From the NCBI RefSeq assembly GCF_030406905.1, contig NZ_CP129137.1:3333001-3397000 (forward strand): DNA of 64,000 nt, given 5' to 3'. Each line of letters begins with the position of its first letter. Position 1 is the stretch's first letter. Positions 24,850 through 57,187 of this stretch are shown here, piece after piece. The stretch comes from Streptomyces sp. HUAS CB01 (GTDB taxonomy: Bacteria > Actinomycetota > Actinomycetes > Streptomycetales > Streptomycetaceae). A program made the position numbers and the translations under genes. A model generated the notes under the pieces. The model saw only the letters and a program-made list of their open reading frames with translations, made no database searches and was not told the DNA's origin.

Positions 24850-25473
24850 ATGGACAAACGGGGGAATGCGGTCCGTGTTCTTATTGCCGAAGACATGCAC
24901 ATGCTGCGCAAGGCGCTGGTGTCGCTCCTCGAACTGGAGTCCGCCATAGAGGTGGTGGCCGAGCTGGGGGACGGGGCGCAGATCGTGCCCCGCGCCCAGG
25001 AGGTCCGCCCCGACGTGGCCATCCTGGACATCGACCTGCCCGGCATGGACGGACTGACCGCCGCGGCGGCGCTCAAGACCGCGGTCCCGGAGTGCCGCAC
25101 GCTGATCCTGACCAGTCTCGGGCGGCCGGAGAACCTGCGCCGGGCCCTGGCGGCCCATGTGTACGGCTTCCTGCTGAAGGACAGTGACCCGGAACAGCTC
25201 ATGAAGGCCATCCACGCGGTGGCCGAGGGCAAGCGGGTCATCGATCCGGAACTGGCGCTCGCCGCGCTCGACGCCCAGCCGCATCCGCTCACCGCGCGCG
25301 AGCTGCAGGTACTGCGGCTGACGGCCGAGGGCGAGGGAGCACGGCAGATCGCCAAACTGCTGACCCTGTCGAACGGCACGGTCCGCAACTACCTGTCGAC
25401 CATGGTGACCAAGCTGGGCGCCCGCAACCGCGTGGACGCGATCCGTATCGCCAGGGAGGCGGGCTGGCTCTGA
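24850..25473 (+). CDS. NarL/LuxR-family response regulator
   Basis: A 207-residue two-component response regulator. The receiver domain has the acidic pocket near residues 14-15 and phospho-acceptor Asp60 in VAILDIDLPGMDG, with a conserved Lys in FLLKDSDP. The C-terminal LuxR-type HTH (~145-200) starts LTARELQVLRLTAEGEGARQIAKLL. ATG 24850 (MDKRGNAVRVLIAED) follows GAAAGAG. No kinase gene is adjacent. The only histidine kinase in the window, a NarX-like enzyme at 52.2-53.4 kb, is the natural partner. It probably adds a signal-dependent layer above the SARP. Confidence 0.9.
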   Translation: MDKRGNAVRVLIAEDMHMLRKALVSLLELESAIEVVAELGDGAQIVPRAQEVRPDVAILDIDLPGMDGLTAAAALKTAVPECRTLILTSLGRPENLRRALAAHVYGFLLKDSDPEQLMKAIHAVAEGKRVIDPELALAALDAQPHPLTARELQVLRLTAEGEGARQIAKLLTLSNGTVRNYLSTMVTKLGARNRVDAIRIAREAGWL

Positions 25474-46054: not shown

Positions 46055-48067
46055 TCAGCGCTCCCTCGGCTCCAGGTCCGGCTCCAGGTCCAGATAGGCG
46101 GCGGCCTGCAGGGTGAACAGCGCGGCGTAGTCGCCGCCGCTTTCCATGAGCCGCGTGTGCGTGCCCTCCTCCACGAGCCGGCCGTCGCGCAGCAGCAGGA
46201 TGCGGTCCGCGCGGCGCACGGTCGAGAAGCGGTGCGAGATGTACAGGGTGGTGCGCTGCGCCGCCAGTTCGCGCAGCCGGGTGAACAGCTCGTGCTCCGC
46301 CTCGGCGTCGAGCGCGGAGGTGGGCTCGTCGAGCAGCAGCACCGCGCTGTCGCGCATGAAGGCACGGCTGAGCGCGATCTTCTGCCACTCGCCGCCGGAC
46401 AGGCTGACGCCGTCGGCGAACCACCGGCCGAGCGTGCTGTCCAGGCCCTGCGGCAGCCGGTCCACGATCGTCCTCGCCCCGCCCCTGTCCACCGACTCCT
46501 CGATACGGGCGCGGTCCTCGACCGCCTCCAGGCTGCCCAGCCCGACGTTCTCCGCGGCCGTGCCCTGGTACATGACGAAGTCCTGGAACATCGCGCTCAT
46601 CCGGCGCCTGAGGTCCTCGGGCTCGTACTCGGTGACCGGTACGCCGTCGAGGAGGATGCGGCCCTCCGTGGGTTCGTAGAGCCGGCACAGCAGCTTCAGC
46701 AGCGTCGACTTGCCGGCGCCGTTGCGGCCGACGACGGCCACCGTCTCACCGGGACGTATCTCGAAGCTGACGTTGCGCAGTGCGGGGCGCCGCGTCCCGC
46801 GGTAACGGAAGGAGACGTTCTCGAAGACGACGTGGCCCCGCACCTTCTCGGGCACCGGCCTGGGGCGCTCGGGAGCGGTGATGGCGGGCCGGGTCGCCAG
46901 GAACCGGTCGAGGTTCGTGAGGTAGAGGGAGTTCTCGTACAGGCCGGTGATCCCCTGGAAGATCGACTGGAGCGAGGACTGCACGGAGCTGACCGCCATG
47001 GTGTACAGGGCCATGTCGCCGAGCGTCATCCGGCCGTGCATCGCCTCCAGCGCGATGTACAGATACGCCAGGCTGCCGACGAGCATCGACAGCAGCCCCC
47101 AGGTCACACCGACCAGGTTGCGTGCCCGCACCAGGCGCGCCTGCCACTGGTAGTAGACCTCGCCGAGCCTGCGGTAGCGCTCGACGAAGTACCCGCCGAG
47201 CCCGGAGAACTTGACCTCTTTCGCATAGGTGTCGGTCGTCACCAGCGTGCTCAGGTAGTCCATGCGCCGTGCGACGGGCGAGCTCCACAGGGTCATCATG
47301 AACCCGCGCTGGCTGTACTGGGACTCGGCGAGGAACGCCGGCAGCGGGGCCAGTAGGGCCGCCAGCACCAGCACGGGGCTGATCACCAGCATCAGGCCCA
47401 GCATCCCGACGAAGGTGATCAGCGTCCTGATGAGGTCGAACACTCCGGTGACCATGGACACCGGCCGGGTCGCCGTGCCGTCCCTGGCCTGTTGGAGCAG
47501 GTCATAGGAGTCCGACGCCTCGAAGTAGGCCAGGTCGAGGCCGACGGCGTGGCTCATCACCCGATGCCGGATCGTCAGGGCCACCTTCTCCTGAAGCAGT
47601 TGGCGGCAGATCGTGGACAGCGCCGTGCACAGCGCGTTGAGCGCGAAGACCAGCAGCTGGGCCCCGGCCACCACGACCACCTTGGTGGCCGGAGTCACCG
47701 TCGCCGACCAGCCGGTCAGCGGCACCTCCAGCAGGAGCCGGGCCCCGCCGTCACCGGCCCGGGCCCGCACCCCCTCCACCACCGTGTCGGTGAGCAGCTT
47801 GGCGACGTACGCGGCGGCCGCGGGCGTCAGTCCGCCGAGCACGGTGGCGGCCATCAGCCCCAGGGTCAGGCCCCGGCTCGTGCTCCAGGTCAGCCTGAGC
47901 ACCTGGGGAAGCCCACGCACCGTGCCGACCAGGGCGGTACGGAACGCGCGCAGACGTTCCGCCGCCCCGCGCCGGCGTCGCGGCCGGGGAGGCTCACCGA
48001 TCTCCAGCGGGCCGGTCAGGCCGCTGTCGCCCACGGTCACCGGTTCGTCGAACGGTCCGCGCCGCAT
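46055..48067 (-). CDS. ABC transporter, fused permease-ATPase
   Basis: A 670-residue half-transporter. The N-terminal membrane domain has about six spans (GLMAATVLGGLTPAAAAYV, VVVVAGAQLLVFALNALCTAL, LIRTLITFVGMLGLMLVI and others). The C-terminal ATPase has Walker A VVGRNGAGKSTLLKLL, signature LSGGEWQKIALSRA and Walker B AVLLLDEPTSALD. It resembles lipid/peptide and drug exporters. ATG 48067 is preferred to GTG 48097 because GGAGGG lies 8 nt upstream. Last gene of the minimal-PKS operon, 71 bp after the ACP, so export of the polyketide is likely; export of the RiPP is an alternative. Confidence 0.88.
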   Translation of the reverse strand: MRRGPFDEPVTVGDSGLTGPLEIGEPPRPRRRRGAAERLRAFRTALVGTVRGLPQVLRLTWSTSRGLTLGLMAATVLGGLTPAAAAYVAKLLTDTVVEGVRARAGDGGARLLLEVPLTGWSATVTPATKVVVVAGAQLLVFALNALCTALSTICRQLLQEKVALTIRHRVMSHAVGLDLAYFEASDSYDLLQQARDGTATRPVSMVTGVFDLIRTLITFVGMLGLMLVISPVLVLAALLAPLPAFLAESQYSQRGFMMTLWSSPVARRMDYLSTLVTTDTYAKEVKFSGLGGYFVERYRRLGEVYYQWQARLVRARNLVGVTWGLLSMLVGSLAYLYIALEAMHGRMTLGDMALYTMAVSSVQSSLQSIFQGITGLYENSLYLTNLDRFLATRPAITAPERPRPVPEKVRGHVVFENVSFRYRGTRRPALRNVSFEIRPGETVAVVGRNGAGKSTLLKLLCRLYEPTEGRILLDGVPVTEYEPEDLRRRMSAMFQDFVMYQGTAAENVGLGSLEAVEDRARIEESVDRGGARTIVDRLPQGLDSTLGRWFADGVSLSGGEWQKIALSRAFMRDSAVLLLDEPTSALDAEAEHELFTRLRELAAQRTTLYISHRFSTVRRADRILLLRDGRLVEEGTHTRLMESGGDYAALFTLQAAAYLDLEPDLEPRER

Positions 48068-48137
48068 GCCGCGGCCCTCCGGTCTCCCCCGGTTCACGGG
48101 GCCACCCCCACGCGGCGGCACTGCCCCGGACGCCCCC

Positions 48138-48395
48138 TCACGCCGCGTCGAGCACGAGTCCGTTGACGTGCTCCACGAGTTCCCGTGGCGTCGTGACCTG
48201 CTCGAAGGTGTCGTCCGGGAACTTCACTCCGTACTCCCGCTCGATCCGGCTCTGCGTCTCCAGCAGCGCCAGCGAGTCGTATCCGAGATCGGTGAAGAGA
48301 CGGTCGGCGCCGTCCTCCAGCGGCAGGCCGGAGTCGTCCTCCCCGGCGCACTCCCGCATGATGTCCTGCAACTTCGACAGCGTGATCTCTCGCAT
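48138..48395 (-). CDS. Acyl carrier protein of the minimal type II PKS
   Basis: An 85-residue ACP with Ser41 in DLGYDSLALLETQSRIE, the signature of type II PKS ACPs. It carries the growing polyketone. ATG 48395 has GAGGAGAAG upstream; a GTG at 48413 is also in frame. It follows the CLF by 50 bp, giving the classical KS-CLF-ACP order. Confidence 0.94.
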   Translation of the reverse strand: MREITLSKLQDIMRECAGEDDSGLPLEDGADRLFTDLGYDSLALLETQSRIEREYGVKFPDDTFEQVTTPRELVEHVNGLVLDAA

Positions 48396-48444
48396 GGCCA
48401 CTCTTCTCCTCACTGTTGTCGTCGGCTCGATCCGGCCCAGGACC

Positions 48445-49659
48445 TCAGGCCGCCCGGCGCAGGACGAGCGCGGCGTTGAACCCGCCCGCGCCCCGGGCCA
48501 GCACCAGCGCGGCGCCCGGCCGCCACGGCCGGGGTGCTCCGGTCACCAAGTCGATGTCGTACTCCGGCGCGACGGAGCCGATGCCCGCCGTCGGCGGGAT
48601 CACCTCGTCGCGCAGGGCCAGCAGGGCACAGGCGGCATCCACCGGCGCCGCGCCCGAACTCATGCGCCCCGTCAGGGTCTTGGGAACGGTCACAGGCACG
48701 CCACCGGGCCCGAACACCGCGGCGACGGCCTCGGCCTCGATCCGGTCGGCCGCCAGGTCGCCGGCCCCGTCGGCGAACACCACACCGATGTCCGACGGGT
48801 CCGTCCCGGCGTCCTCGAGCGCACCCTCGAGGGCACGCCGAAGAACGGGGGTTCCACCGTGCCGGGGGGCGGCGTCGAACGTCGTGGCGTAGCCGGCGAT
48901 CTCGCCGTAGACCCGGGCCCCCCGGTCCCGGGCGCGGGCCGCGTCCTCGACGACGAGGATGGCGCCGCCCTCGCCGGGCACATACCCGTCCGCCCCGGCG
49001 GTGAAGGGCCGGTAGGCATCGGCCGGGTCCTGCCGGGCGCTCATGTGACCGCCCTTGATGCGGGCCACCCAGCCGTACGGGCTGAGGGAGCTCTCCATGC
49101 CGCCGGACAGGACCAGCGGGGTGCCCTTGCGGATGTTCCGGCGGGCCTGGGCGAGGGCGTCGAGACCGCCCGCCTGGTCACCGACGAATACCCCGGAGGG
49201 GCCGCGCATGCCGTGCCGGATGGAGATCTGGCCGGAGTTGACCGCGTAGAACCATGCGAAGGACATGTAGACGCTGACGTGCTCCGGACCGGAGCTCCAC
49301 AGGGCGGTGAGCTCGCGCTGGCCGTACTCGAAGCCGCCCGAGGCCGCGGAGGTGGCCACGCCCATCTCCGTCGTGTCGTACGTCCCGGGCGTCACCTCGG
49401 CGTCGGCCAGGGCCCATTCGGAGGCGGCGAGGGCGAGCTGGGTCATCCGGTCGGTCTGCGGGATCAGCCGGCCCGGCACATGCTCCTCGGGGACGAAGTC
49501 GTCGATCTCCCCCACCAGTGTGGCGGGGTACCGGCTCGCGTCGAACCGCCGGACCGGCCCGATGCCGGACTCCCCCCGCAGCGTCGCCTCCCAGAACGGC
49601 CCGACCCCCAGGCCGTTCGGTGCCGCGACGCCGATTCCGGTCACCACTGCCGATGTCAC
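48445..49659 (-). CDS. Chain-length factor (KS-beta)
   Basis: A 404-residue ketosynthase-like subunit in which the active-site Cys is Gln162 ([16 protein letters not shown]), diagnostic for KS-beta. It heterodimerises with KS-alpha and sets chain length. Its start overlaps the KS-alpha stop by 4 bp, ensuring equal translation. The gatekeeper residues that set chain length could not be read reliably without an alignment. Confidence 0.95.
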
Positions 49660-50927
49660 GCTTCTCCCTTCTCCGGGTGGGTCAGCACCATGGCGCTCTG
49701 GAAGCCCCCGAATCCGCTGCCCACGCTCAGCACGGCCGACAGGTCCCGGTCGCGCGCGACCAGCGGCACATAGTCGAGGTCGAGCTCCGGGTCGGGTTCG
49801 TTGAGGTTGGCGGTCGGCGGGACGACGCCCTGGTCGATGGCCAGGGCACAGGCGGCGATCTCGATCGATCCGATCGCCCCCAGGGAGTGGCCCACCATCG
49901 ACTTGATGGAGCTGACCGGCGTGCGGTACGCGTGGTCGCCCAGACTGGTCTTGATGGCCGCCGTCTCGTGCCGGTCGTTCTGCTTGGTGGCGGTACCGTG
50001 CGCGTTGACGTAGTCGATGTCCTGCGGGTTCAGCCGGCTCTCGTCGAGCGCCGCCGTGATCGCGGCGGCCAGCTCCGCGCCGTCGGGCCGCAGCCCGGTC
50101 ATGTGGTACGCGTTGCTGCGGGACGCGAAGCCGGTGATCTCGGCGTAGATCCGGGCCCCGCGGGAGCGCGCGTGGTCCAGCTCCTCCAGGACGAGCATCG
50201 CGGCCCCCTCGCCGAGCACGAAGCCGTTGCGGGTGCGGTCGAAGGGCCGCAGCGCGTGCTCGGCGTCGTCGTTGCGCGGCGAGGTCGCCTTGATGGCGTC
50301 GAAACAGGCCACCGTGATGGGCGAGATGGGCGCGTCGGTACCGCCCGCCAGCATCACGTCCGCCCGCCCCTCCCGGATCAGCTCGCAGGCGTGGCCCAGG
50401 GAGTCCAGGCCCGAGGTGCAGCCCGCGGAGACGACGGTGACCGGTCCCTGGGCGTTCGCCTCCCAGGCCACCTCCGCGGCGAGCGAGCTGGGCACGTAGT
50501 AGTCGTAGAGGTGAGGAACCGCGTAGCCGTCGTCGACCAGCCAGTCCTGTCCGGCGTCGCTGAGGACGACGTACTCCTCCTCGAGCCGGACGGTGCAGCC
50601 GACGGCGCTGCCGACGCTGACGCCGACCCGTGCGGGGACGAGGCCGTCCGTTTCGAGGCCGCTGTCCCCGAGGCTCTCGCGGGCGGCGACGAGCGCGAAC
50701 TGCGCGGCCCGGTCCAGCCGCCGGATCTCCCGTGCGGAGAGCCCCTGCCGGACCGGGTCGAAGTCGACCTCGGCTGCGATGCGCGAGCGGAAGGCCGACG
50801 CGTCGAAGGCGGTGATCAGCCTGGTCGCACTCCGCCCGGCGGTGATCATCTCCCAGAACGCCTTGGTGCCCACCGCACCCGGAGCGACCACGCCGACGCC
50901 GGTGATCACGACCCTCCGGCTGCTCAT
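49656..50927 (-). CDS. Type II PKS ketosynthase KS-alpha
   Basis: A 423-residue KS with catalytic Cys170 in [16 protein letters not shown] and His residues in [11 protein letters not shown] and [15 protein letters not shown]. It catalyses each decarboxylative condensation with malonyl-ACP. ATG 50927 has CCAGGAGGCGG upstream; the longer frame to 51557 is not conserved. It heads the leftward KS-CLF-ACP-ABC operon, with a heptamer box about 127 bp upstream. Confidence 0.96.
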
Positions 50928-51053
50928 CGCCGCCTCCTGGCGGTTCTCCTGCTGCTCTGCATTCCCATCGGTCTCTGCTCTCCTGATCGTCCAGGGACGG
51001 AACGGGTCGAGCCTGCGCGCCGGCCCTGGAGGGTCACTCGAAGAACGCAGGAG

Positions 51054-51176: not shown

Positions 51177-51587
51177 GGACGGACAGGCGCGGGTGGTGCG
51201 CGGAGTCGACCTCGGCGGTCGGCGCCCGGACGCGGTGCGACCAGATCCGGGCGCGCTGCCGGAGTACGAGGTCCTGGCTTTCCGGCACCAACGGCTCGAC
51301 GACGAGGCACCGCTGGCCCTCGCCGGCCGGCCGGGCCCGCTGACGCCGGGCGGGTGCTTCTTCGGTGACCCGGGCGTCAGGGACCAACTGGAGCCGGCGG
51401 TGCGGACGGTCGTGGAGCAGGCCGCCGCGGCGGGCATCGCCTGCGGAGCGCACTGCGTGGACGGGGCGCAGGCCGCGCGCGGCGCCTGTCGGAGTGCTTC
51501 ACCTTCGCGGCCGTCTCCGGCGACGTCACCCGTCTCCGGCAGGTCGCGGCCGGGCATCCGGCCGCCGCGCGAGGGGACGGCGCATGA
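51177..51587 (+). pseudogene. Aldolase-like relic (HpcH/HpaI type)
   Basis: The plus strand reads [53 protein letters not shown] and, after a frame change near 51490, [19 protein letters not shown]. These fit the C-terminal region of an HpcH/HpaI-type aldolase/lyase (phospho-enolpyruvate-utilising fold). The N-terminal part is missing and the frame is broken, so it is non-functional. Its stop overlaps the ATG of the following relic, suggesting a former operon. Confidence 0.5.
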
Positions 51588-52170
51588 GCAACGCGGGAAA
51601 GCGAGCTCCGCCCGGCCGGCGGCCGCGGTCGGGTCCGTCGAGGATCCCGGGGGCGGGACACCGATGGTCCCGGTGCCGCTGCCCGGCCTGCCCGGAGGGG
51701 CGATGCCACCGGGCCCGAGATCCGGGACGCGGTCGGTGCGGACGTCGATGTCCTGGTGCTCGGCGTGGGCACCGAAGGCTCGCTGACGGGCGGGGCGCGT
51801 CTTCGGATGGGACGCACGACGTGCTTGTGGTCGCGGTCGAGCCGGCCAGGTCGGGGGTCGTGTCGGGCGGGGCCGCCGGGCCGCACGGCATTCCCGGCAT
51901 CGGCGCGGGCTGTGTCTCGGAGATCACCGATCTCCCGCTGGTCGACGAGATCGTCGCGGTGACGGACGAGGACTCCGCGGCGACGGCCCGCGAGAGCGCG
52001 GCCACCACGGGCGTCCTGGTCGGCGTCCCCTCGGGTGCGGCCGCCCGCGCCGCACGGCTGGTCGCCGGCGCGCCCGTGGCGGCGGACGGCCGGAGCCGGG
52101 CGTCGTGACGGTGTTCCCCGACTCCGGGGAGCGCTGTCTGCCGAAGGCGGCGCACCGCCCCGAGGACTGA
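51584..52170 (+). pseudogene. Cysteine synthase-like relic, internally deleted
   Basis: Pieces of a PLP-dependent cysteine synthase (CysK/CBS fold) are readable in different frames: GGTPMV near the start, [23 protein letters not shown], then [28 protein letters not shown] and VVTVFPDSGER at the end. The ~120 residues holding the PLP lysine are deleted and at least two frame changes are present. Together with the aldolase relic it fills the gap between the minimal PKS and the histidine kinase. Confidence 0.7.
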
Positions 52171-52189: not shown

Positions 52190-53431
52190 TCACCGGTCGC
52201 CCACGCGCAGCACCCGTACCAGGGCACTGTCCTCGGGGTCGCGCACCGCGGCCTGCCGCACCTTCACGGCGCCGCTGCCCTCGCTCTTGGACAGCAGCGG
52301 TACGTGGACGGCCAGCTGGAAGGTCCCCCGCTCCGGGGAGGTGACGCCGAGGCTTCCCCCGAAGGACTCCACCCGGGCGCGGAGGTTGCCGATGCCGCTG
52401 CCTCCGGCGTCGTCGTCCGCGCTGAGGACGCCGGACTGACCGCCGGCGCCGTCGTTCCACATGACGAGCCAGACCTGGTCGTTCTTGCGCCAGGCTTCGA
52501 TCCGGCAGTGGGTCGCCTTGGTGTGCCGCAGGATGTTGGTGAGACCTTCCCTCAGCACGGTGGCGAGCAACGCGTCCACACGGGACGGAAGTTCGCCGGG
52601 TTCCACGTCGGACTCCACCCGGATGCCGAGCGCGGCGAGCAGCGACTCGGCCGTCTGGAGTTCGGTGGTCAGGGACATCGCCACATAGCCCTGGGCCACC
52701 GCGCGGACATCACCCAGCGCCCGCCGGGAGGCCTGCAGAAGGTCGCGGATCTCCTCCCGGGCGCGCCGGTGCTCCTCCGGAATCAGCCGATAGGCGAGTT
52801 CCCCTTTGAGCGTGATCGTGGAGAGGCTGTAGCCGAGCAGGTCGTGCAGGTCACGAGCGAAGCGCAGTCGTTCCTGCGCAATGGCCAGTTCGGCGAGTTC
52901 GACCCGTGAGGCGTACACCTCGCCGACCAGTCCGGTCAGCCGCGACATGCCGAAGACCACGATGCCGGTGAGTCCGGTGGCGACCGACGTGTAGGCGACG
53001 GCCCCCAGTCCGTGTCCCAGCTCCACGAGGATCAGGTCCGTGGCCAGGATGACCAGGAAGAAGCAGATCCAGGCGGGTAGCGGCCGCAGCCGCAGCAGAG
53101 CCGAACCCGCCAGGAAGCCCGGCATGCCGAGCCATGCCTCCTCGAGAAGGACGAACGGGACATAGGTCAACACCGCCTGGATCGCCAGCATCACCCGAAC
53201 CGGGAAGTACTTGGCCGACACCAGACGGGGGAAGGAGTGTCCGATTTGAAGGGTCAGAAGAAGGCCGAGCAGGACCAGCCCCAGCGCCAGCTGGAGGCGC
53301 GTGGGCTGGGCTCGCACGACGTAGGTGACGGCAACTCCGAAGTAGCACAACAGAGTTGCCCCGGTGATCGACACCGCGATGCGTGGCGCGATGTCGTACG
53401 CCTCGGTCGAAATCAGGCGCGGCACTTTCAT
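52190..53431 (-). CDS. Membrane sensor histidine kinase, NarX/DesK-like
   Basis: A 413-residue sensor kinase. About five or six membrane spans occupy residues ~15-165, followed by a HisKA_3 dimerisation domain with phospho-acceptor His196 in FARDLHDLLGYSLSTITLKGELAYRL. The C-terminal ATPase domain has N-box LREGLTNILRHTKATHC and G-box SGIGNLRARV. Extracytoplasmic loops are short, so it may sense a membrane state. ATG 53431 gives MKVPRLISTE; longer starts to 53482 are possible. No response regulator is adjacent; the NarL-type regulator at 24.9 kb is the only candidate partner here. Confidence 0.9.
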   Translation of the reverse strand: MKVPRLISTEAYDIAPRIAVSITGATLLCYFGVAVTYVVRAQPTRLQLALGLVLLGLLLTLQIGHSFPRLVSAKYFPVRVMLAIQAVLTYVPFVLLEEAWLGMPGFLAGSALLRLRPLPAWICFFLVILATDLILVELGHGLGAVAYTSVATGLTGIVVFGMSRLTGLVGEVYASRVELAELAIAQERLRFARDLHDLLGYSLSTITLKGELAYRLIPEEHRRAREEIRDLLQASRRALGDVRAVAQGYVAMSLTTELQTAESLLAALGIRVESDVEPGELPSRVDALLATVLREGLTNILRHTKATHCRIEAWRKNDQVWLVMWNDGAGGQSGVLSADDDAGGSGIGNLRARVESFGGSLGVTSPERGTFQLAVHVPLLSKSEGSGAVKVRQAAVRDPEDSALVRVLRVGDR

Positions 53432-53555
53432 GGTTCCCACGAAACCCCCGCTTCGTGCGCACATTGTTACCAATGCCATCACACATCTTACGGGTTTGTC
53501 CGGTCACCCAGCGTGCTTCGAACATATTGAGACAGCGCGGCTGAGCAGCCGGCTG

Positions 53556-55868
53556 TCACAGGAACAGCGCGATGGGATTGAGCTGCTCGTACGGGGTGGG
53601 GACGGAGAGCCGGCCCAGGCGCACCGGCACGTCGAACAGCCGGCCCGGCGCGAACCGCGCCCAGTGCGGCCGCAGCCCGGGAACGATCACCTTGACGACG
53701 GGAAGGCCCATGTCCGGACGGGTCTGATCGAGAACGAGCATCTCCAGGCCGCGTTCGCGCAGCAGGCCGACCGCATGGTCGATGTCGTCCAGCAGGTCGT
53801 GCCGCCGGGGCTGTGCGAGGCGTGACAGGTCCGACGGTGAACTCGCGCGCAGGTACGGCTGGTTCTCGAGCGTCGCGTGCTGCAACCAAGCCAGCGCGTG
53901 CGGATCGCGGCACTCGTATCCGCTGCCGTCGGCCGTGGCCCCGAGGACCGGCGGGAGCAGTTGGTTCAGCTCCGTGAGCGCACGCCGTACGGCCACGGCC
54001 GGGTCGAAGTGGGCTCCGAAGCCGAGCATGACGTCCTCGGCCGGCTTGTCGATGCGCCGCGCCAGCGCGGCCACCACGGGGATGCCGAAGTCGGAGGTGA
54101 GGTCCAGGGCCCACACCTCACGCCCGAGCTGCGCGTGCACCTCGTGGCAGCGGGTGATCCAGCCGTCGTCGAAGACCGCCAGGTCGACGGCCGGCTGCAC
54201 CGTGCGGTTGTACCACCACAGGGCGACGGCATCGCGCTCCACCAGCTCCAGGAAGCCCTGGAGCACCGCGTCCTCCAGGCTGCCCCCGGCCGCCGCCCCG
54301 TTGGAGTTGGCGAAGAACCACTGCCGGCCCTCGGGCTGCGGCACGTGGTAGTAGAGCAGCGCCGTGGGCAGGAGACGTCGGCGCTGCTCGGTCAGCGACC
54401 ACACCGGGGTCCAGTCGACCTCGGCGTCGGCGTCGAACGGGTCGCACACGTGGTGGTGCGCGGAGTGCCGGGCGTTCCACTCCTTCCGCTCCGCGAGCTG
54501 GCGGGGGTGGAACAGCTGCACCGCGTCCGGATGCACGGCCTCATCGGCCAGGTCACGGTAGCGGGCGCGCACCCGCGGCTCGGTGCCGTGCAGACAGCCG
54601 CTGAGCCGCTCGACCGCCTCGCCCAGCGCGCTGACCCGCGCCTGCTCCTCGGTGGCGCCCTTGCCCGAACTGGTGCCGCGCAGCCCGGCGCGCACCGAGT
54701 CGAGGCCCGAGTCCGGCCCCAGCACCGGGTTGTACCCGGCATGGAAGCAGTTCAGGAAAGCCGGGCCGCGGGTGTCCCGGCGTATCTCCCGCACGGGCCC
54801 GGTGACGGGATCGACCAGATGCCGGTACGTGTCCCACATCTGCTCCGCCGACAGCGCGCGATGGCCGTTTCCACCGGCCTCCGTCTTCGGCCGGGAGCGC
54901 AGGACCACGGGCGCCTCGACGCGGGCCCGCTCGATCCGGGGATCCCCGCACGCCTCGCACTGCGGGCGACGCACGACGGCGTGCCGACTCCCTTCCAGCG
55001 TGAGCGTGTCGAAGATGAACAGTCTGCCCTGGTCCGCCCCGCGATGGCCCTGGAGCCACTTGGCCGCCTCCAGAAGGGCGAGCTGGAGGGCGGCGGCACG
55101 GCTCGCGGGCAGTTCCGCGACGGGCTGCGGCACCGGCCGTTCGAGCCCCAGCCGGTCGCGCAGGTGTGCCTCGACCGGCCTGACCTGCCACAGGCGGACG
55201 GCCAGGCAGTGCCGGCACGGCCCGTCCGCGAGCCCGAAGAACGGCCCCAGCCACGCCACGCGTCCGCCGGGCCGCACCGGCAGCCAGGGACGGCCTTCGG
55301 CCCGGTGCTCCGCGTCCAGGCGGGCCAGGTCCGGATCCAGGTAGTCCGCGCAGACCACGACGGTGAGTCCCGCGGCCGATGCGTCCGGCACGACCCGCAG
55401 CCCGGCGGCACGCACGGCGTCGTGCACACCGGCCGCCCGCGCGGCGTCCTCCCCGGCGCCCGGACCGCCGCCGCCCAACACCCGCACGTGCACCGCGTCG
55501 GTCCGCGGCGCCTCGGCGGTCGGTGCCCCTGCCCCGGCCAGCTCCCAGTAGGCGTCCTGGGCCGCCCGTCCGGGATCGACGGCACGCTCGTGGAGCAGGC
55601 CGGACGCGACGAGCCGGTCGAGCGTGCGTCCCACGCTGTGCGGATCCAGCCAGGCAGCCGACTCGTTCAGTACGCCGGCCCGGTCCCGGGTACCGTCCAG
55701 CAGCGGAACGATCCGCTCGATGTGCGGTCCGCGCAGCGCCACCACCCGGTCGTCGGCGAACACGTAGACGGCCTCGCCCGGCACAGCCGCTGCGCGCAGT
55801 GGCGGACGAAGACCGAGCACGGGCCCCGGCGCACCGGAGCCCGTGTTCTCCTGACCCGGGTGGGTCAA
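53556..55868 (-). CDS. RRE/E1-like + YcaO fusion cyclodehydratase (TOMM)
   Basis: A 770-residue protein with the two-part layout of TruD/LynD-type azoline-forming cyclodehydratases. Residues ~20-100 look like a leader-binding RRE. An E1-like part follows with two CxxC pairs (C218RHC221 and C304EAC307) that fit a structural zinc site. From ~395 a YcaO domain begins, with ATP-site blocks SSGKGATEEQARVSALGEAVERL and NSNGAAAGGSLEDAVLQGFLELVERDA. It should convert Cys/Ser/Thr of a precursor to azolines. The C-terminus reads YEQLNPIALFL, lacking the PxPxP tail of most TOMM YcaOs. The TTG start overlaps the precursor stop by 2 bp, so the two are translationally coupled. No dehydrogenase is in the window. 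Confidence 0.88.
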   Translation of the reverse strand: MTHPGQENTGSGAPGPVLGLRPPLRAAAVPGEAVYVFADDRVVALRGPHIERIVPLLDGTRDRAGVLNESAAWLDPHSVGRTLDRLVASGLLHERAVDPGRAAQDAYWELAGAGAPTAEAPRTDAVHVRVLGGGGPGAGEDAARAAGVHDAVRAAGLRVVPDASAAGLTVVVCADYLDPDLARLDAEHRAEGRPWLPVRPGGRVAWLGPFFGLADGPCRHCLAVRLWQVRPVEAHLRDRLGLERPVPQPVAELPASRAAALQLALLEAAKWLQGHRGADQGRLFIFDTLTLEGSRHAVVRRPQCEACGDPRIERARVEAPVVLRSRPKTEAGGNGHRALSAEQMWDTYRHLVDPVTGPVREIRRDTRGPAFLNCFHAGYNPVLGPDSGLDSVRAGLRGTSSGKGATEEQARVSALGEAVERLSGCLHGTEPRVRARYRDLADEAVHPDAVQLFHPRQLAERKEWNARHSAHHHVCDPFDADAEVDWTPVWSLTEQRRRLLPTALLYYHVPQPEGRQWFFANSNGAAAGGSLEDAVLQGFLELVERDAVALWWYNRTVQPAVDLAVFDDGWITRCHEVHAQLGREVWALDLTSDFGIPVVAALARRIDKPAEDVMLGFGAHFDPAVAVRRALTELNQLLPPVLGATADGSGYECRDPHALAWLQHATLENQPYLRASSPSDLSRLAQPRRHDLLDDIDHAVGLLRERGLEMLVLDQTRPDMGLPVVKVIVPGLRPHWARFAPGRLFDVPVRLGRLSVPTPYEQLNPIALFL

Positions 55869-56023
55869 GAGCCCGCCCCCGGTGACGCCGACTCGGCCGT
55901 GTCCGCCGGTGTCTGTCCGGGGCCGCCCTTCCAGCAGATGCAGATGCAGATGCCTGCGGCCGGTGCGTACTGAAGGTCGGCAGAGAGCTCCTCGATCAAC
56001 AGCAGGTCGTCGTTGTCGTTCAA
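55865..56023 (-). CDS. RiPP precursor peptide with Ile-Cys repeat core
   Basis: A 52-residue peptide immediately upstream of, and coupled to, the YcaO cyclodehydratase. TTG 56023 has AGAGGAAATC just upstream. The N-terminal leader (~1-24) is acidic, NDNDDLLLIEELSADLQ, with the LLxxELSxxLQ pattern expected for RRE binding. Then comes the putative core ICICICWKGGPG (residues 25-36), made by three ATC-TGC codon pairs, and a Pro/Ala/Thr/Ser-rich tail of 16 residues. Three cysteines are the obvious azoline sites. No match to a known product is recalled. It is easily missed because of its size and TTG start. Confidence 0.82.
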   Translation of the reverse strand: MNDNDDLLLIEELSADLQYAPAAGICICICWKGGPGQTPADTAESASPGAGS

Positions 56024-56130: not shown

Positions 56131-56149
56131 ACCGTGAGAATCTCACGGT
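56131..56149. promoter_or_regulatory. 19-bp inverted repeat in divergent RiPP/SARP promoter region
   Basis: ACCGTGAGA-A-TCTCACGGT is a perfect 9-1-9 inverted repeat in the 369-bp spacer (56024-56392) between the precursor peptide and the SARP gene. It is a good candidate operator for a dimeric regulator acting on one or both genes. Otherwise only loosely spaced TCGA heptamers (56204, 56222, 56243) are seen in the spacer. Confidence 0.6.
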
Positions 56150-56392: not shown

Positions 56393-57187
56393 ATGAGGTT
56401 CAGTCTGCTCGGCCCCTTCGAGATCACCACCGACGACGGGAAGCCGTTCGCCCTGCGCTCACCGAAGGTTCGGCAGGTCCTCGCGCTGCTGCTCGCGCAG
56501 CCGGGCGGAGTGGTTCCCGTGGAGACACTGATAGGGGAACTGTGGGGGGAACATCCGCCCCGAAGCTCCCTGACGACGCTCCAGACGTACATCTACCACG
56601 CCCGCAAGGCCTTCGGCCGGGAAGGCGTCGCGCCGGGACGCGAGCTCCTGGTCACGGCTCCGCCGGGCTATCGGATGGACGTGTTCGACCACGAGGTGGA
56701 CAGCATCGTCTTCGAGGACCTCGTCAACCGGGGCCGGGCGGAGCTGCGTGACGGGAACGACGAAGCGGCCTCCCGCCATCTGCGGCAGGCGCTGTCGATG
56801 GGCCGCGGCCGGGTGCTCTCCAACATCGAGGTGGGCGATGTGCTCTCGGCCCATGTCGCCTACCTCGAGGAACTGCGGCTGCGTGCCACGGAACTGTCGA
56901 TCGAGACCGACGTCCGGCTGGGCCGGCACCGCGAACTCATCCCCGAACTGCGCGCACTCGTCAAAGAACACCAGCTCAACGAGTGGTTCCACGGCCAGCT
57001 GATCTCGATCCTCAGTGTCTCGGGGCGACGGGCCGAGGCATTGAAGGCCTACCAGAACCTGCGGCGCATCCTGGACGACGAACTGGGCCTCGAACCGTCG
57101 GACGAACTCCAGCGACTGCAGTACGAGGTGCTCAACTCCTCCGGCCCCGAGCCCATGCGTCTGCTGAGGCCGTCTCCCGTCCGCTAG
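56393..57187 (+). CDS. SARP-family transcriptional activator
   Basis: A 264-residue Streptomyces antibiotic regulatory protein. It has an N-terminal winged HTH (MRFSLLGPFEITTDDG, KVRQVLALLLAQPGGVVPVETLIGELWGEHPP, TLQTYIYHARKAF) and a C-terminal bacterial transcriptional activation domain (~100-250) ending LGLEPSDELQRLQYEVL. Size matches ActII-ORF4/DnrI. ATG 56393 has GGAG 7 nt upstream. It is the likely reader of the 11-bp-spaced heptamers found before eleven units of the cluster. It sits at the right edge, divergent from the RiPP genes. Confidence 0.93.
   Translation: MRFSLLGPFEITTDDGKPFALRSPKVRQVLALLLAQPGGVVPVETLIGELWGEHPPRSSLTTLQTYIYHARKAFGREGVAPGRELLVTAPPGYRMDVFDHEVDSIVFEDLVNRGRAELRDGNDEAASRHLRQALSMGRGRVLSNIEVGDVLSAHVAYLEELRLRATELSIETDVRLGRHRELIPELRALVKEHQLNEWFHGQLISILSVSGRRAEALKAYQNLRRILDDELGLEPSDELQRLQYEVLNSSGPEPMRLLRPSPVR

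Follow-up and report, generated by a model that had tools for sequence, protein, structure and literature searches.

What is a peptide with a very short core and three cysteines, coupled to its own heterocyclase, doing between the gene of a membrane sensor kinase and that of a pathway activator inside a type II polyketide synthase (PKS) cluster? The question is raised by a stretch of 64,000 nucleotides from Streptomyces sp. HUAS CB01 (contig NZ_CP129137.1, positions 3,333,001 to 3,397,000), referred to here as the window, in which a 52-residue precursor (55865..56023, minus strand) is encoded together with a fused YcaO heterocyclase (53556..55868, minus strand). A preliminary description, made from the sequence alone, saw in this pair a compact producer of a ribosomally synthesized and post-translationally modified peptide (RiPP), a picture that is too narrow. 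The pair probably belongs to a cluster-situated autoinduction cassette, in which a modified peptide signal is read by a two-component system and drives both its own operon and the gene of a Streptomyces antibiotic regulatory protein (SARP). The peptide looks more like a signal than an antibiotic because it travels with a kinase, a response regulator, a SARP and a shared dyad beside biosynthetic clusters that differ.

The precursor peptide and its family

Relatives of the locus were collected from 392 genomes of the same genus (taken as Streptomyces on the strength of named protein and plasmid matches) and from two plasmid records. The enzyme is found at E ≤ 1e-100 in 115 of these genomes, its own included, and 122 loci were analysed, corresponding to 119 other genome places, the two plasmid loci and the window. 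A split at 41% enzyme identity leaves 116 loci at or above this value, the window among them, and six below.

The precursor gene opens with a TTG codon, with GAGGA six bases upstream, and its translation is LNDNDDLLLIEELSADLQYAPAAGICICICWKGGPGQTPADTAESASPGAGS. Its TGA stop and the TTG start of the enzyme gene share bases as TTGA. The leader carries the motif LLLIEELSADLQ (55970..56005, minus strand), for which the family consensus is D-LVIE-[DE][LF] and which presumably resembles the LAELSEEAL motif of cyanobactins. The core, ICICICW, with its three Cys, is located at 55931..55951 on the same strand.

With a regular expression for the leader, 56 loci show a match in the interval from -300 to +60 around the enzyme start. 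Control stretches of 360 bp, taken on both strands, gave zero to one locus each, save the stretch 0..360 (+), whose 30 loci are due to its overlap with the precursor open reading frames (ORFs). As the leader motif reappears upstream of homologous enzymes, the precursor is not a chance ORF. The observation of an Ile-Cys precursor with an overlapping fused heterocyclase is confirmed; the reality of the pair is close to certain and the precursor, already proposed in the preliminary description, is conserved. When 15,008 small ORFs were scanned with a precursor profile (E ≤ 0.01), 74 matches lay near the enzyme and one elsewhere, but this count is circular since the near set had served to train the profile, and the leader control is the better test. 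For L063 and L132 at least, the automatic choice picked the wrong precursor, and 16 of the 122 loci were assigned none. A Cys in the last 50 residues is weakly informative (98 of 105 chosen precursors vs 1184 of 1810 background ORFs), and a CxC motif is more so (36 of 105 vs 50 of 1810).

The core types of the family include CIC[WT] and CFC, [FL][ST]xC, and others. Tandem core copies occur in three precursors, namely those of L126 (VTSSCNFTHGPIP-type, four copies), L048 and L034 (QFTFCAQPDP; FTLCAGP), and some leaders have a longer N-terminal extension that appears Nif11/NHLP-like by eye. In a protein database search, the window peptide alone retrieved one relative, of 52 residues and 98% identical, the sources of which were not displayed, so that it may stem from the species of the window itself. 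An alignment of 24 peptides retrieved 44 proteins at E ≤ 1, the named ones being hypothetical or uncharacterized. In the PDB, the precursor gave no convincing match (best E 0.45) and the precursor alignment none.

The fused heterocyclase

The enzyme, a protein of 770 residues that also starts at a TTG, combines a RiPP precursor recognition element (RRE), an E1-like leader-binding part and a YcaO cyclodehydratase. It matches the NCBIfam models TIGR03604 (SagD-type, E 1.7e-79) and TIGR03882 (leader-peptide binding in thiazole/oxazole-modified microcin (TOMM) systems, E 2.4e-43), and its Pfam YcaO score is 350.9 bits. A sequence search of the PDB aligned it with TruD (503 bits, enzyme residues 17-766) and LynD (494 bits, residues 16-767), and the RRE, the Zn-binding E1-like and the YcaO parts are all covered because these alignments are near full-length. 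The TOMM-type fusion recognized earlier from the letters alone is thus borne out by both models and by the alignment. The Zn-type pairs C218/C221 and C304/C307, like the ATP-site residues GKG (402-404), E417 and E420, show full conservation (116 of 116 loci); SNG (522-524) is kept in 115 of 115 aligned enzymes, and both E541 and E544 are kept in 114 of 114.

TOMM cyclodehydratases generally carry a C-terminal PxPxP motif. The enzyme ends with NPIALFL rather than with this motif, and in the family NPxP is found in 103 of 116 loci and PxPxP in seven. In view of the near full-length homology to TruD and LynD, the absence of PxPxP is treated as a variant C-terminus, which would weaken the name of canonical cyclodehydratase but not the expectation that the protein works like one. 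By the same homology, azolines would be formed on the core Cys, and the preliminary description had predicted a tri-thiazoline, with the loss of three waters. A thioamide RiPP of the TfuA-YcaO kind was considered and rejected, as the YcaO part is fused to RRE and E1-like parts and not stand-alone; no TfuA was found among the 20 window proteins scanned. The profile search of the window found no dehydrogenase either, in line with the preliminary description. Neither a SagB dehydrogenase nor a SagB-N-like gene was found in the window, to which the search was confined (best in-frame profile match E 0.0065), and a SagB-N-like match at 7.5e-09 turned out to be an out-of-frame echo of the 3' end of the enzyme gene. 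The same genome also holds, at G000:C1:7386006-7398697, two distant YcaO-type genes (L002 and L003) with 32-34% identity, about 10 kb apart.

A conserved kinase, regulator and SARP

The neighbouring kinase gene (52190..53482, minus strand) begins about 73 bp past the end of the enzyme gene. It encodes a membrane sensor histidine kinase with HisKA_3 and HATPase_c domains and N-terminal hydrophobic helices, several of them within the first 180 residues. On the other side, the SARP gene (56393..57187, plus strand) is divergent and about 370 bp from the precursor gene. A NarL-type response regulator, encoded 28 kb from the kinase (24871..25473, plus strand), is taken as cognate because its closest relatives (77%) are the regulators of L068, L065, L060 and L059, four loci whose kinases and enzymes likewise rank within the closest 14. 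The next regulator in its own genome is 56% identical to it.

At or above 41% enzyme identity, a same-family histidine kinase is found nearby in 110 of 116 loci, a response regulator in 106 and a SARP in 81, the window being scored as a regulator miss because its copy lies 28 kb away. Below 41%, the kinase, the regulator and the SARP are each found in none of the six loci, and all six carry SagB and ABC-transporter markers, an arrangement like that of product-type TOMM clusters. The partners also co-vary. Pairwise identities of the enzyme correlate with those of the kinase at 0.83 (105 loci), of the regulator at 0.79 (107 loci) and of the SARP at 0.70 (73 loci), and the two parts of the kinase give 0.80 for the sensor half and 0.72 for the kinase half, with permutation maxima of 0.10 or less.

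The neighbouring biosynthetic clusters, typed by marker matches within about 9 kb and from six annotated plasmid records, differ between cassette loci. A type II ketosynthase alpha subunit (KS-alpha, >400 bits) lies within this distance in 24 of the 116 loci, so that a type II PKS is not the constant neighbour that had been considered at first. Among 11 loci whose clusters share two markers, acyl-CoA carboxylase beta and type II KS, several core types occur, L099, L118 and L128 being alike in core.

Three loci (L075, L076 and L084) carry, at about +3060..+5470 from the enzyme start, a kinase ORF of about 790-800 residues that seemingly consists of two tandem kinase copies, followed in L076 by another long kinase ORF. 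On plasmid NZ_CP108007.1 (L156, 20252-22830), a stand-alone YcaO and TfuA-like pair stands just downstream of the cassette, and another response regulator and kinase come after it.

A putative operator shared by the precursor operon and the SARP gene

The intergenic region between the SARP and precursor genes contains ACCGTGAGAATCTCACGGT (56131..56149), a perfect 19-bp palindrome and putative operator. Generalized to the dyad RTGA-N5-TCAY, and with a near zone set at -900 to -60 from the enzyme start, it is found near the enzyme in 100 of the 116 loci. There are 137 near matches vs 78 in the remaining 2.2 Mb of these loci, a 38-fold density that is not a blind count, since the dyad had been noticed beforehand in the window palindrome and in k-mers and only then generalized. 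Its background in the whole genome of the window is 216 per 8.1 Mb. Beyond the 13 bp of the dyad there is only weak base preference, at most 0.35 bits per position, and perfect palindromes with 7+7 arms showed no clear enrichment upstream over control stretches at any spacer.

The dyad was checked by a spacing series, by relocated SARP genes and by hold-out loci. When the arms were kept and the spacer was varied from 0 to 11, the eleven lengths other than N5 were found near in 0-17 loci with ratios of 0-5.4, except N1, whose ratio of 15.5 comes from only 12 matches in all, and the series supports the dyad. SARP genes that are not divergent from the precursor operon carry the dyad at their start in 10 of 20 cases, a figure in which L124, where one dyad serves two SARP genes, is counted twice; the N4 and N6 controls gave 0 and 0. 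Seven of the ten dyad-less relocated genes belong to loci with a second SARP. For divergent SARP genes, the dyad is present in 57 of 71. The hold-out set was made up of previously unused loci, five from the same genus and seven from other genera. In the same genus, the operator and a precursor-like ORF were each found in five of five (three of the ORFs by the regular expression) and an adjacent kinase in four of five.

The dyad is present in 96 of 107 loci whose stretch contains a regulator and in five of 13 without one, two short-upstream loci being left out, and these five include the window with its regulator 28 kb off. One clade without the exact dyad has a one-mismatch form at -288 to -361 in seven of seven members. 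Joint regulation, raised as a possibility in the preliminary description, gains support from this shared dyad and from the conserved kinase, regulator and SARP.

The dyad is also met beside other genes. Many loci encode on the minus strand, at about +4400..+5150, a small SagB-N-related protein of about 210-250 residues (LWSLRED...), for instance at 5963-6592 in L114, and no family match was obtained for two examples. Its own dyad lies close upstream in 14 loci, with distances taken to the upstream stop of the ORF. In L158 and L159, the order is SARP, dyad, SagB-like gene, kinase and regulator, and the YcaO enzyme was not found in the stretch. These two are read as partly lost or rewired cassettes, with the SagB-like gene and the dyad in the place of the enzyme.

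Proposed mechanism

In the proposed cassette, the heterocyclase would bind the LLLIEELS leader via its N-terminal RRE and, as predicted from TruD and LynD, convert the core cysteines of ICICICW to thiazolines. Once trimmed, the peptide would exit the cell or act at the membrane, where the adjacent kinase would sense it and phosphorylate the NarL-type regulator encoded 28 kb away. This regulator would bind the conserved site RTGA-N5-TCAY between the SARP gene and the precursor operon, and binding would raise both the peptide operon, in a positive feedback, and the SARP. SARPs generally turn on biosynthetic clusters, and this one would switch on the cluster in which it resides. That the two-component system controls the operon and the SARP is highly likely; that the peptide is what the kinase senses is favoured with distinctly less assurance. 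As judged from the gene content, a putative signal gene is linked to its cognate kinase and regulator, which is the arrangement of autoinducing peptide/two-component quorum sensing.

Evidence against the cassette and alternative explanations

Several observations weigh against a peptide-driven autoinduction cassette. Correlated identities would arise from linkage alone, and related loci are not independent events. A same-family kinase is found at E ≤ 1e-40 in at least 146 of the 392 genomes, and 20 fetched kinase places whose genome or contig had no listed enzyme alongside, some of them short contigs, held the enzyme in none, the regulator in 16 and the SARP in 11. As the kinase occurs without the enzyme, it can work with another input or with none, and the peptide is dispensable. 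The kinase, the regulator and the SARP can thus exist without the peptide; the enzyme of this clade is seldom seen without them. The exact operator is absent from 16 of the 116 loci and is found in one of the six below 41%, a related form (ATGA-N6-TCAT) is near in seven loci with a ratio of 10.9 on 21 matches, and a protein other than this regulator might be what binds the dyad. In the hold-out loci from other genera, examined with 1.5-kb flanks, the operator was found in one of seven, the kinase in none and the regulator in one, so that the cassette mostly fails outside the genus and is shown for this genus only. A SagB dehydrogenase marker (>200 bits) is present in 20 of the 116 loci, that of L083 being confirmed as SagB by a family search, and oxidized azoles, of the kind seen in end-product RiPPs, are therefore probable for some of the products. 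Exporter markers are not widespread (ABC in eight of 116 loci, MFS in 21), and leader peptidases were not searched for.

In two of the loci from other genera (L187 and L189), a LanC-like ORF, recognized by eye, stands directly upstream of the enzyme gene, and the same enzyme may there serve other RiPP loci.

The explanation that best survives beside autoinduction, although it is unlikely, is that the peptide is an azoline-RiPP end product, such as an antibiotic or a metallophore, which the two-component system, the SARP and the operator merely co-express with the neighbouring product. The SagB markers are in its favour, CxC cores could bind metal, and the part of the bottromycin literature compared here (PMC7113386) documents RiPP pathways with two-component systems and SARPs. 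An end product fits less well with neighbouring clusters that vary while the kinase and the regulator stay, with a dyad concentrated at the starts of the precursor operon and the SARP gene, and with the six enzymes below 41%, which have ABC-transporter markers but no kinase. The lack of a widely recurrent exporter marker also speaks against it, immunity and protease genes not having been searched for.

Compared with both autoinduction and an end product, it is still less probable that the kinase senses something else, for instance the cluster product or membrane or redox stress, and that the modified peptide acts inside the cell as a modulator, e.g., of a cluster enzyme or of either partner of the two-component system. 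Such a role would agree with a kinase family found without the enzyme, with the lack of an identified exporter, and with a sensor whose longest inter-helix gap, estimated by hydropathy, is 26 residues in median and 80 at most. Against it stand the rarity of the enzyme without the kinase at or above 41% and the co-variation of the enzyme with the sensor half, which is no weaker than that with the kinase half.

Finally, a peptide-polyketide hybrid or tailoring carrier, in which the peptide would be joined to the polyketide as the position inside a type II PKS cluster had suggested, is very improbable and was rejected, given the minority of loci that have a type II KS at a distance of up to about 9 kb and the several core types among the 11 clusters with the same markers.

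Other features of the window

The type II PKS core spans 48138-50930. KS-alpha (49656..50930, minus strand) was assigned by Pfam, its start being placed by eye at MSSRRVV, and KS-beta or chain length factor (48445..49659, minus strand) by position and similarity to KS-alpha; the acyl carrier protein of this core was assigned by eye. An ABC exporter-type protein of the cluster (46055..48121, minus strand), used as a marker and found in few cassette loci, is at most a candidate for export of the peptide. A frame-broken stretch that separates KS-alpha from the kinase (51350-52108, plus strand) resembles, by eye, a cysteine synthase remnant. No protease family matched among the 20 window proteins scanned, no search being aimed at proteases, those of the PatA/PatG type included.

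Comparison with known systems

By chemistry, the peptide would fall in the TOMM/azoline class, with a TruD/LynD-like enzyme of variant C-terminus, and functionally the cassette would be comparable to autoinducing RiPP systems. TruD and LynD (PDB 4bs9, 4v1t) share with the enzyme near full-length homology over the RRE, Zn-binding E1-like and YcaO domains. Unlike them, the cassette has very short cores and a kinase, a regulator and a SARP as neighbours.

Autoinducing RiPPs read by two-component systems are known from nisin with NisKR and from AgrD with AgrC. As in these, the gene of a modified peptide stands together with those of a kinase and a regulator, and a positive loop is predicted. The cassette differs in its YcaO chemistry, its actinomycete hosts and a SARP output onto a different cluster; no exporter was identified in it, and its sensing is a proposal.

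Goadsporin has a long core and extra enzymes, unlike the cassette. It is nevertheless comparable as a YcaO-made Streptomyces peptide acting on secondary metabolism. According to the passage devoted to it in the survey PMC4603692, its Streptomyces producer has a TOMM cyclodehydratase of the fused type, and the peptide promotes secondary metabolism; this passage does not mention an adjacent kinase, regulator or operator. In gamma-butyrolactone/SARP circuits, a small signal also acts upstream of a SARP controlling an antibiotic cluster, according to the part of the SARP review compared (PMC10972967), but the signal is a lactone with its receptor and not, as proposed for the cassette, a peptide acting via a two-component system.

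No family recognized as this cassette appears among the section headings of the survey PMC4603692, and a term search of its text as available returned no SARP, histidine kinase, two-component or polyketide. In the part consulted of a 2025 study on regulators as beacons (PMC12224297), SARP genes are tied to PKS, nonribosomal peptide synthetase and RiPP clusters, and YcaO is not mentioned. Parts of the rishirilide literature (PMC7917814) were compared along with the SARP review and the bottromycin paper. Within open-licence PMC full texts, a scope outside which subscription papers and preprints fall, no description of this cassette was recognized.

Significance for Streptomyces

Under laboratory conditions, many biosynthetic clusters of Streptomyces stay silent. 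It is an evenly balanced proposal that around three in ten Streptomyces species carry cassettes for short YcaO-modified pheromones, the "pherotype" cores of which would be diverse (among them CIC, FTxC and CNFTHGP, with tandem copies in some), each cassette having its own co-varying kinase and gating its host cluster via one conserved operator and a SARP. The combination of a precursor, a YcaO fusion, a histidine kinase and RTGA-N5-TCAY would provide a genome marker for such clusters. If the pheromone reading is true, synthetic azoline peptides would activate silent clusters one by one. A ribosomal, sequence-encoded signal, paired with an operator that is conserved, would offer an inducer predictable for each cluster, and a role as signals would extend YcaO peptide chemistry beyond weapons.

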